From positions 744,001-808,000 of the forward strand of contig JAOPKE010000001.1 in NCBI GenBank assembly GCA_025517465.1: a stretch of 64,000 nt of DNA. Reading direction: 5' to 3'. Source of the DNA: Halobacteria archaeon HArc-gm2. Lineage in GTDB: Archaea > Halobacteriota > Halobacteria > Halobacteriales > Haloarculaceae. Of the stretch, positions 44,217 through 56,228 are shown in pieces. The notes beneath the pieces were generated by a model that did not search any database, was not told where the DNA came from, and saw nothing but the letters and a program-made list of their open reading frames with translations. The first letter of the stretch is position 1. The number at the start of each line of letters is the position of its first letter. Made by a program: the position numbers and the translations under genes.

Positions 44217-45368
44217 ATGAGATTGCACGAATACCAGGCGAAGCAGGTCTTCGCCGACGCGGGAATCCCGACGCCCGCGGCTCAGCTCGCCGATACCGTC
44301 GACGACGCGGTCGCGGCGGCCGAGGAGATCGGGTATCCGGTGGCTATCAAGGCACAGGTCCACGTGGGCGGCCGCGGCAAGGCCGGCGGCATCAAACTCG
44401 CCGAGAACGAAGCCGAGGCCGAGGAGTACGCAGAGGACATCCTCGGGATGGACCTCAAGGGCTACGAGGTCAAGCGCGTCCTCGTCGAGGAGGCCGTCGA
44501 CTTCGTCAACGAACTGTACGTCGGCGTCACGATGGATCGGGGCGAGGGCGAACCCGTCGCCATGGTCTCGACGAAGGGCGGCGTCGACATCGAGGCCGTC
44601 GCCGAGGAGGACCCCGAGGCCATCGCGCGGGAGCACGTCGACCCCGCCTTCGGGATGCACCCCTACCAGGCCCGGAAGGCCGTCTACGACGCGGGCGTCG
44701 ACCGCGAACTCGCCCGCGACGTCTCCAGCATCCTGCAGACGCTGTATCAGATCTGGGACGACAAGGACGGCTCCGACGCGGAGATCAACCCGCTGATGAT
44801 CACGTCCGACGACGAGGTCATCGCGGCCGACGCCGTGCTCAACACGGACGACGACGCCCTGTTCCGCCACCCCGACCTCGTCGAGATGGAGGAGGAAGGC
44901 GAGTTCGAGGGGAGCGAACTCGAGGAGAAGGCCGACGAGTACGGCTTCGACTACGTCCGCCTCGACGGCAACGTCGGCATCATCGGCAACGGCGCTGGCC
45001 TCGTGATGACGACGCTGGACCTGGTCGACCACTTCGGCGGCGAGCCCGCCAACTTCCTCGACGTCGGGGGCGGCGCCAAGGCCCAGCGCATCGCGAACGC
45101 GCTGGACATGGTGTTCTCCGACGAGAACGTCGACTCCGTCGTGTTCAACATCTTCGGTGGTATCACGCGCGGCGACGAGGTCGCGAAAGGGATCAACCAG
45201 GCGCTCGAACAGTTCGACGAGATTCCCAAGCCCGTCGTCGTCCGCCTCGCGGGGACGAACGCCGCCGAAGGGATGGAGATTCTGAACGAGGACCTGGTCA
45301 CGGTCGAGGAGACGCTGGAGGACGCCGTCCAGCGCTCCGTCGCGTACGCACAGGAGGGATCACAATGA
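44217..45368 (+). CDS. sucC: Succinate-CoA ligase (ADP-forming) subunit beta
   Basis: A 383-residue SucC. It starts [20 protein letters not shown] and has the ATP-grasp motifs [22 protein letters not shown] and EINPLMI. The C-terminal CoA-ligase domain has [22 protein letters not shown] and [17 protein letters not shown]. With SucD it makes ATP (or GTP) from succinyl-CoA in the citric acid cycle. The sucD start overlaps the stop of this gene by 4 bp (ATGA), so the subunits are coupled in translation. Confidence 0.98.
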
Positions 45369-46234
45369 GCGTTCTAGTAGACGAAGACACCCGCGTCGTC
45401 GTCCAGGGTATCACTGGCGGCGAGGGCAAGTTCCACGCAGAACAGATGATCGAGTACGGGACGAACGTCGTCGCCGGTGCAGTCCCCGGCAAGGGCGGCC
45501 AGGAGGTCGCCGGCGTCCCGGTGTACGACACGGTCGAGCAGGCCGCGAAGGCGGAGGACGCCAACGCCTCCGTCGTGTTCGTCCCGCCGGCCTTCGCCGG
45601 TGACGCGCTGTTCGAGGCGCTCGACGCGCCCCTCGACCTCGTCGTCGCCATCACCGAGGGCATCCCGACCCAGGACATGGCCCGCGTCAAGCGCAAGCAG
45701 GACGAGACCGACGTCCACCTCGTCGGTCCCAACTGCCCCGGCGTCATCACGCCGGACGTCGCCAAACTCGGCATCCTGCCGGGCAACATCTTCTCGTCGG
45801 GCGACGTCGGCCTCGTCTCCCGCTCGGGGACGCTGACCTACCAGGTCGTCGACAGCCTCACCCAGCGCGGCATCGGCCAGACCACCGCCATCGGCATCGG
45901 CGGCGACCCCATCATCGGCACCTCGTTCGTCGACGCCCTCGAACTGTTCGAGGCCGACCAGGACACCAAGGCGGTCGTCATGTGCGGCGAGATCGGCGGC
46001 GAGGACGAGGAGCAGGCCGCCCGCTACATCGGCGAGTACATGGACACGCCGGTCGCCGGCTTCATCGCCGGCCGCACCGCACCGCCGGGCAAGCGCATGG
46101 GCCACGCCGGCGCCATCGTCTCCGGTTCCGGTACCGGCACCGCCGAGTCGAAGATCAACGCGCTGGAGAACAACGGCGTCCCTGTTGGTGACACTCCCGA
46201 GGAAGTCGCCGACAACGTCGAAGACCTGCTGTAA
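45365..46234 (+). CDS. sucD: Succinate-CoA ligase (ADP-forming) subunit alpha
   Basis: A 289-residue SucD. The Rossmann CoA-binding domain has [19 protein letters not shown], then [10 protein letters not shown]. The ligase domain carries the phosphorylated His247 in [23 protein letters not shown]. The sequence ends normally at TAA. A degraded second copy of the last 110 bp follows immediately downstream (about 46274-46447), interrupted by a hairpin element; the gene itself is intact. Confidence 0.98.
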
Positions 46235-46273
46235 CACGGTTTTCCCGACACCGGACGTGTCGTCCGAATTCCG

Positions 46274-46447
46274 GTGTCCGTTTCCGGTACGGTACCGCCG
46301 AATCCATGATCAACGCACTGGAGAACAACGGCGTCCTGTGCGAGCGGAGCGAGCACAGGGCTCGATAGACGAACGGAGTGAGTCTATCGGCGTCCCTGTT
46401 GGTGACACTCCCGAGGAAGTCGCCGACAACGTCGAAGACCTGCTGTA
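46274..46447 (+). pseudogene. Duplicated 3' end of sucD, interrupted by a hairpin element
   Basis: From about 46274 the sequence repeats the sucD codons for [20 protein letters not shown] with several substitutions and small deletions. It is then broken at GGCGTCC (46330-46336) by 52 bp of hairpin sequence and resumes with a second GGCGTCC (46389-46395). After that it matches the last 52 bases or so of sucD up to CTGCTGTA without a visible difference. This is a tandem partial duplication. The near-identity of the distal part against divergence of the proximal part suggests gene conversion or unequal age. It is not expected to be expressed. Confidence 0.85.
46337..46388. mobile_element. Single inserted double-hairpin unit inside the sucD tail duplicate
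   Basis: The insert is hairpin 46337-46357 (TGTGC/GCACA stem, loop GAGCGGAGCGA), linker GGGCTCGA, then hairpin 46366-46386 (TAGAC/GTCTA stem, loop GAACGGAGTGA). GGCGTCC borders it on both sides (46330-46336 and 46389-46395). Intact sucD has a single GGCGTCC here, so the second looks like a 7-bp target duplication or the element's own end. The unit has the same design as the 57-bp units at 55944-56171. Confidence 0.75.
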
Positions 46448-46739
46448 GGTCGGTCGCGCTAGCGGCATACGGCGTCGATTCGATTTTTCTTCGCGGTAGG
46501 AACCCCGGAACAGCGACTGGGACCACCGATTTCCGGATAATGGCCCACTACCGTACGCGGTAGAATTCATCCCGAGAGCGGCCAGCATCTCGATTGACGG
46601 CAGCCGACGCGATAGGAACGGGAGAGATCAATCGACGAACGTCCACTCGATTCCGGAGAAAGTGGGAGACCTGTGCCAACCATGGACAGTACGTAAACGT
46701 TCCGGTGTCTCTAAATACCGCGCCTGGGAACTTTCGACT
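46448..46739. other. Intergenic region without a recognised gene
   Basis: Nothing coding stands out in these 292 bp. CTACCG-TACG-CGGTAG at 46548-46563 is a short inverted repeat. CTCTAAATACCG at about 46711-46722 could be a TATA region about 25 bp before the zinc-finger gene. Confidence 0.5.
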
Positions 46740-55919: not shown

Positions 55920-56228
55920 TAGTGGTGGTTGTAAGCCCGTCCCGGCATCCTGTCGAGCGCAGTGAGACAGGGCTGGACGGACGAGCAGCGCGAGTCCGTC
56001 GGCGTCCGGCCGAACTGCGTGAGGCCGGGCTCGAGAGACGAACGGAGTGAGGCTATCGGCGTCCCGACGAGCATGGCGAGTCGGGGCTCGGGAGACGAGT
56101 GCAGCGAGTCTCCCGGCGTCCTGTCGAGCGCAATGAGACAGGGCTCGACGGTCGAGCAGCGCGAGTCCGTCGGCGTTCGACGGGATGGGTGCCTTCGAAC
56201 GCCGGTGAAAAGTTACAACCACCACTAT
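55919..56228. mobile_element. Hairpin array bounded by a 16-bp inverted repeat
   Basis: ATAGTGGTGGTTGTAA at 55919-55934 is exactly repeated in inverse orientation at 56213-56228. Between them lie four contiguous 57-bp units (55944-56171) and a short unique right part. The whole 310-bp segment sits between the DJ-1 stop codon and the zinc-ribbon gene. It carries no convincing gene. The inverted ends could be terminal repeats of a transposable array or the base of one large folded RNA or cruciform. No known insertion sequence was recognised. Confidence 0.7.
55944..56178. repeat. Four 57-bp tandem units of paired hairpins
   Basis: Unit borders GGCRTYC recur at 55944, 56001, 56058, 56115 and 56172, exactly 57 bp apart. 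Each unit holds two hairpins with 11-nt loops fitting GARCNNNGYGA: 55949-55972, 55976-56000, 56006-56028, 56036-56054 (imperfect), 56063-56085, 56090-56114, 56120-56142 and 56147-56171 (one mismatch). Stem sequences differ between units but remain self-complementary, so base pairing is conserved by compensatory change. The linker between paired hairpins is GGGCT or GGGCTCG-like. Confidence 0.9.

Follow-up and report, generated by a model that had tools for sequence, protein, structure and literature searches.

The 64,000-nucleotide stretch of DNA analysed here (the window, from Halobacteria archaeon HArc-gm2, genome G000) contains the 3' end of sucD twice, once intact and once, a short distance downstream, split by a unit of two hairpins. 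This raises the question as to what the inserted unit is, and how a gene comes to stand beside a spare and interrupted copy of its own end.

The interrupted copy of the sucD end

The complete sucD gene (45365..46234, plus strand as for all features below, 289 aa) has an uninterrupted tail running from GGCGT to the stop codon (46175..46234), and this left copy is identical to 46389-46448 except for the last base. Read one base earlier, 46388-46447 is an exact repeat of 46174-46233 (60 bases), far above chance expectation, with the two copies ending in different stop codons (TAA versus TAG). Between them lie a locus-specific spacer with a run of Ts (46235..46273), which has no match in the nearest relative G006 and is possibly a new terminator, and a diverged copy of the sucD DNA from upstream of the insertion point (46274..46334), which ends in GGCGT, is 89% identical to 46135-46181 over 46290-46336 and shows weaker likeness back to 46274. 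This is followed by hairpin A (46335..46359, stem CCTGTGC and GCACAGG around the loop GAGCGGAGCGA), the linker GCT at the centre of a GGCTC (46360..46362), hairpin B (46363..46389, stem CGATAGAC and GTCTATCG around the loop GAACGGAGTGA) and the right copy of the sucD tail (46389..46448), with both hairpins assigned from folding and covariation.

As the copies are spaced 155 and 214 nucleotides from start to start the insert is 59 bp long, and it can be read equivalently as 46330-46388 or 46335-46393. Its strand folds into the two hairpins both as RNA (-31.7 kcal/mol, z -3.3) and as DNA (-15.5, z -2.2). Fold and exact repeat together bear out the description in the first-pass annotation of a sucD end duplicated downstream and interrupted by a double-hairpin unit. 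A T run in the spacer 3' of the intact sucD stop is also present in most other genomes with this arrangement (e.g. G001, G045, G053 and G059), where it might fit a new archaeal terminator.

Anatomy and abundance of the module

Genome-wide the repeating unit is a module of 57 bp consisting of GGCGTC, hairpin A, GGCTC and hairpin B followed by the next GGCGT, and within arrays modules run head to tail. The window sucD module carries the commonest type of hairpin B in the family and a hairpin-A stem one pair longer, which makes it 59 bp and puts it out of frame. G000 contains 542 occurrences of the hairpin core GANCGNAGNGAG versus 153 of a reversed control; strict module matches number 49 in G000, 31 in G006 and 30 in G004, with none for the reversed pattern in these genomes, and fewer or none elsewhere, so that counts per genome range from 0 to 49. 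Many modules are positioned after stop codons.

The stems (6 and 8 bp) are variable and yet remain paired through compensatory changes among 39 distinct modules. At stem position (9,23), for example, the pairs are GC (12), CG (12), TA (7), AT (5) and TG (3), so that all 39 are paired compared with 15.8 expected by shuffling. The 11-nt loops are structured and follow the pattern GA-RC-NNN-GY-GA, in which R and Y are complementary and NNN is often GNA. In DNA, GNA triloops with closing C-G and tandem G-A pairs form stable structures, and the likeness of the module loops to these is suggestive only.

An Rfam search with the module returned nothing above chance, annotated phages and viral contigs gave no module match, and a plasmid search gave four matches, all weak. 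One weak match was seen on Halobacterium salinarum pNRC200 (315340-315393, L436), with an OB-fold gene on one side and a tnpB gene on the other. Related hairpins are found within other haloarchaeal repeats (...GGACTGAAAGGGCGAG..., at L163, L165, L166, L357 and L359), which hints at a broader superfamily of hairpins sharing the core GAGCGNAGCGAG.

Edges of the insert

The module ends are not inverted repeats, and its two edges behave differently. On the left GGCGT (rarely GGCAT, GGTGT or GGGGT) precedes the module, its fifth base is T in nearly all copies, and the module's own C follows. The right edge is GGCG or GGTG plus any base, continuous with the target (GGCGT, GGCGC, GGCGA, GGCGG, GGTGG). 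The sucD interruption had been read as a 52-bp unit with GGCGTCC on both sides, taken as a 7-bp direct repeat. Unit and repeat together are equivalent to the 59-bp insert, and to this extent the reading stands, but a plain 7-bp target duplication is ruled out because the right edge, including its fifth base, follows the target while the T-C on the left belongs to the module. The last CC is common to both sides only since hairpin A and sucD both happen to continue with C, and species in which sucD has GGCGTG or GGCGTT share GGCGT alone. The sequence common to both edges is therefore GGCGT at most (4-5 bases), which is also the linker between modules throughout the family, and because of this coincidence an element-borne tag and a target sequence are not fully separable.

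Presence and absence of modules among relatives

Filled and empty sites were compared between G000 and G006, with six site pairs examined in detail. At five of the six the difference is exactly 57 bp (C13:191208, C15:26572, C18:135149, C15:25787 and C1:304698); of these C15:26572 is a unique intergenic site and C13:191208 a degenerate copy of an 80-bp element described below. The sixth pair (C12:477882) is of equal length in both genomes with differing modules, and at a further site (C14:355893) a four-module array is wholly missing from G006. Orthologous arrays differ by whole modules. Few module differences were seen over 400 kb compared between G001 and G003, as both genomes are module-poor. 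The proposal that the repeat family is tied to precise insertion events is borne out by these filled and empty pairs, and when other family members were checked for an empty form with one repeat copy, empty sites with a single GGCGT were indeed found. At most sites precise loss is possible as well; for single sites we infer gain rather than loss.

Modules within genes and within an 80-bp inverted-repeat element

Modules also occur in frame inside genes. For tsaD/kae1 in Haloarcula, 24 species are empty, five carry an additional 57 nt in frame and one an additional 39 nt, and other genomes have in-frame modules in an amidase, an isochorismatase and a histidine-kinase ATPase. Gene-borne modules are always read in the GGC-GTC (Gly-Val) frame, and the sucD and tsaD targets encode a similar GVPV stretch. 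As 57 bp is 19 codons and the Gly-Val frame is open, insertions into genes would be tolerable as 19-residue loops.

A second kind of host is an 80-bp element with 15-bp terminal inverted repeats (TAGTGGTGGTTGTAA), present in 46 copies in G000. The copy in the window (55920..56227) contains four head-to-tail modules (80+4*57=308 bp) and is flanked by TGA direct repeats. Element lengths follow 80+n*57 bp: 31 of the 46 copies are 79-81 bp and others include 136-137 (five copies), 194, 308 (two copies) and 365 bp, with deletions in a few. The modules lie at the same internal GGCGT; one copy has the module in the opposite arm and on the opposite strand. TGA..TGA or TCA..TCA flanks were found in 37 of 45 copies, from which the 80-bp element appears to insert at TGA stops, in genes of either strand.

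sucD alleles across the family

Relatives had been proposed as a source of filled and empty sucD alleles, and both kinds exist. A search for the right sucD junction in 146 family genomes found the same arrangement in ten, three in the window's own genus (g1, which includes Halomicrobium katesii) and seven in Haloarcula, among them Har. amylovorans, Har. salina and Har. pellucida, recognised by identical sequence. G006 and G002 are among the genomes that lack it. The intact sucD tail had further been taken as the simple pre-insertion sequence, a view that does not survive the comparison. In the unfilled G006 and G002 the sequence 3' of sucD is that which follows the interrupted copy in filled genomes, and it is therefore the right-hand tail, together with its downstream DNA, that continues the ancestral locus.

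The two tails also evolve in concert. Within a genome they differ at 0.9 of 58 sites, between genomes at 6.8 of 58, and site patterns are concerted in 265 cases versus one that is paralogue-specific, with concerted patterns also in pairs of genomes whose inserts are homologous. This points to homogenisation of the sucD tails by gene conversion, in which case the 'empty' copy would be no untouched fossil, though, taken by itself, this pattern could also result from several recent duplications that arose independently. A candidate in which the whole sucD insert is a site-specific element with a foreign tail was discarded, the tails matching the host's own sucD in every genome.

Filled genomes are scattered over the sucD tree in about eight separate places. 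All filled alleles have a GATAGAC-type hairpin B and a common design, while their spacers differ among lineages. For G045, G055 and G059 the inserts can be aligned over ~200 nt at 79-86%, with empty species lying between these genomes. Most interrupted copies, including that of the window, are out of frame or contain long inserts; the copy in G049 is fully in frame. No genome examined has a module within its sole sucD copy.

A second gene with a spare end

The same layout is seen in G001, G002 and G003 at a gene of the NAD-dependent epimerase family, where the complete gene is followed by a short spacer, a short flank copy, a module and a tail copy; the locus is empty in seven relatives. In G003 the last part is repeated twice. 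At this locus (L344, G003:C2:541201-541574) the epimerase tail and module form a tandem duplication with a 206-bp period. Since a second gene repeats the architecture in three species, the spare gene end is not peculiar to sucD.

Origin of the module and of the spare sucD end

Taken together, the joint explanation that fits best is that the unit represents a palindromic haloarchaeal module, mobile but non-autonomous, with its own history at sucD, an account we consider probable. A module (57 bp as a rule, 59 bp at the window sucD) would enter beside a GGCGT-like site, and because every module brings a fresh GGCGT, arrays would accumulate head to tail. We favour movement as a folded single-stranded hairpin acted on in trans by an enzyme, perhaps of the HUH type. 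At sucD the simplest account is a single entry into the tail, most likely no later than the common ancestor of Haloarcula and Halomicrobium, after which an intact end may have been restored by partial tandem duplication involving an uninterrupted allele carried in the same polyploid cell. Gene conversion would afterwards have kept both tails alike, and recombination between them could repeatedly have removed the whole insert to leave scarless empty alleles. What is observed directly is the precise 57-bp presence and absence, the growth of arrays by whole modules, in-frame insertions, paired stems with compensatory changes, concerted sucD tails and a second gene of the same architecture.

No transposase linked to the module family was found. 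G000 has a single Y1 transposase gene (PF01797), in an IS605-type element whose end hairpins (CCCACCCCTAAAGGGGTGGG and CCCACGGCTTTAGCCGTGGG) are unlike those of the module, and no Y1 hit was obtained in the carriers G002 (module) and G053 and G064 (filled sucD alleles), so an association with Y1 transposases was rejected.

The main rival to an enzyme acting in trans is microhomology-driven template switching. Here modules would spread without any transposase, by slippage or switching between GGCGT microhomologies helped by fork-stalling hairpins, and the sucD duplication and its module would stem from one template-switch event. The lack of an associated enzyme is in keeping with this, as are the whole-module changes in orthologous arrays and the GGCGT at both edges, which are what switching predicts, but for every precise single module at a unique site or in an essential gene, as seen in several genera, two accurate 4-5 bp switches would be needed, and the 80-bp palindrome also has a module in its opposite arm and strand; we regard this explanation as unlikely. 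Another view concerns sucD alone and holds that insertions occurred independently in each lineage because the GGCGT in the sucD tail is a strongly preferred target. The roughly eight separate positions in the sucD tree, the lineage-specific spacers and the GVPV stretch encoded by both the sucD and tsaD targets speak for it. Against this, homology among the inserts of G045, G055 and G059 extends over ~200 nt, all filled alleles share their type of hairpin B and design, the tails evolve in concert even where inserts are homologous, and recombination across a 60-bp repeat makes losses easy, which leaves independent entry rather unlikely. The two unrelated genes with one layout have also led us to consider that insertion itself makes the spare end, the module copying the downstream end while transposing; the host gene would then be rescued within the transposition step, which seems to us improbable.

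Two further explanations give the structures a role. The hairpins could be chiefly functional RNA or DNA structures such as terminators or mRNA stabilisers that are maintained by selection, with mobility old or negligible, and both the strong compensatory changes and the many modules 3' of stop codons accord with this. It is difficult to reconcile with presence that differs among nearest relatives, in-frame copies in genes and counts of 0 to 49 per genome, and we hold a chiefly functional origin to be quite doubtful. Alternatively the copy made up of flank, module and tail could be a silent 3' cassette whose recombination into the gene would give a protein variant with 19 inserted residues. 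At both sucD and the epimerase gene the module is flanked by homologous arms, the tails are homogenised and the G049 copy is fully in frame, yet the majority of sucD copies, that of the window among them, are out of frame or long-inserted, the enzymes concerned are cytoplasmic and no genome was seen with a module in its only sucD copy, making such a switch very improbable.

Relation to known repeats

A literature search for a haloarchaeal or archaeal family of this kind found no description among accessible papers, most subscription papers being outside reach, and a search with the hairpin sequence gave only unrelated matches. Like MITEs (reviewed in PMC10969869) the module is small, gene-less and mobile, but it has no terminal inverted repeats and its right GGCG-N follows the target; it is the 80-bp host element that is MITE-like, with inverted repeats and a 3-bp direct repeat (TGA or TCA in 37 of 45). 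Non-autonomous derivatives of IS200/IS605 would fit the two end hairpins and the fixed short one-strand target, whereas the only Y1 element of G000 has unrelated hairpin ends. With the GTAG REP and BIME sequences moved by RAYT (TnpA-REP) (PMC2817692, PMC6006769) the module shares a hairpin with a conserved 5' foot and non-autonomous spread; its foot however is GGCGTC and not GTAG or GTGG, no RAYT was found beside the modules and some carriers are without any Y1 transposase.

The closest likeness is to the CGTC-tagged REP repeats (Di Nocera et al. 2013, PMC3733652), which include Rickettsia RPE-4 and RPE-6. These are short palindromes with a CGTC tag at the 5' foot that occur in many copies, often after genes, some within palindromes and some in frame in genes, and they have no known dedicated transposase (PMC3733652). 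They have been reported from five bacterial phyla with stems of 8-9 bp, loops of 4-5 nt, a CCA-like tail and mostly head-head dimers, head-tail dimers being called negligible (PMC3733652). As no enzyme is known to move such repeats, CGTC-tagged palindromes are a long-standing bacterial puzzle, for which the archaeal family offers pairs of filled and empty sites, changes by whole modules and conserved genes (e.g. tsaD/kae1) with in-frame insertions, in a family that is well sampled and has relatives amenable to genetics. In addition, the sucD and epimerase loci point to how a broken gene end may be replaced and then held identical to a spare copy, which would make haloarchaeal gene conversion measurable. 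The haloarchaeal module resembles these repeats in the GGCGTC before hairpin A (with GGCAT and GGTGT variants; the tag of hairpin B is GGCTC) and, as for RPEs, in its in-frame copies in tsaD, amidase, isochorismatase and histidine kinase genes. It differs in its stems of 6 and 8 bp, its structured 11-nt loops, the lack of a CCA tail and its organisation as a head-to-tail hairpin pair with alternating GGCGTC and GGCTC tags and a 57-bp period. Since tag and in-frame insertion agree while stem, loop, tail and dimer orientation do not, we do not file the haloarchaeal unit as a member of the CGTC-REPs; it works like an RPE or CGTC-REP, and these are the nearest described kind.
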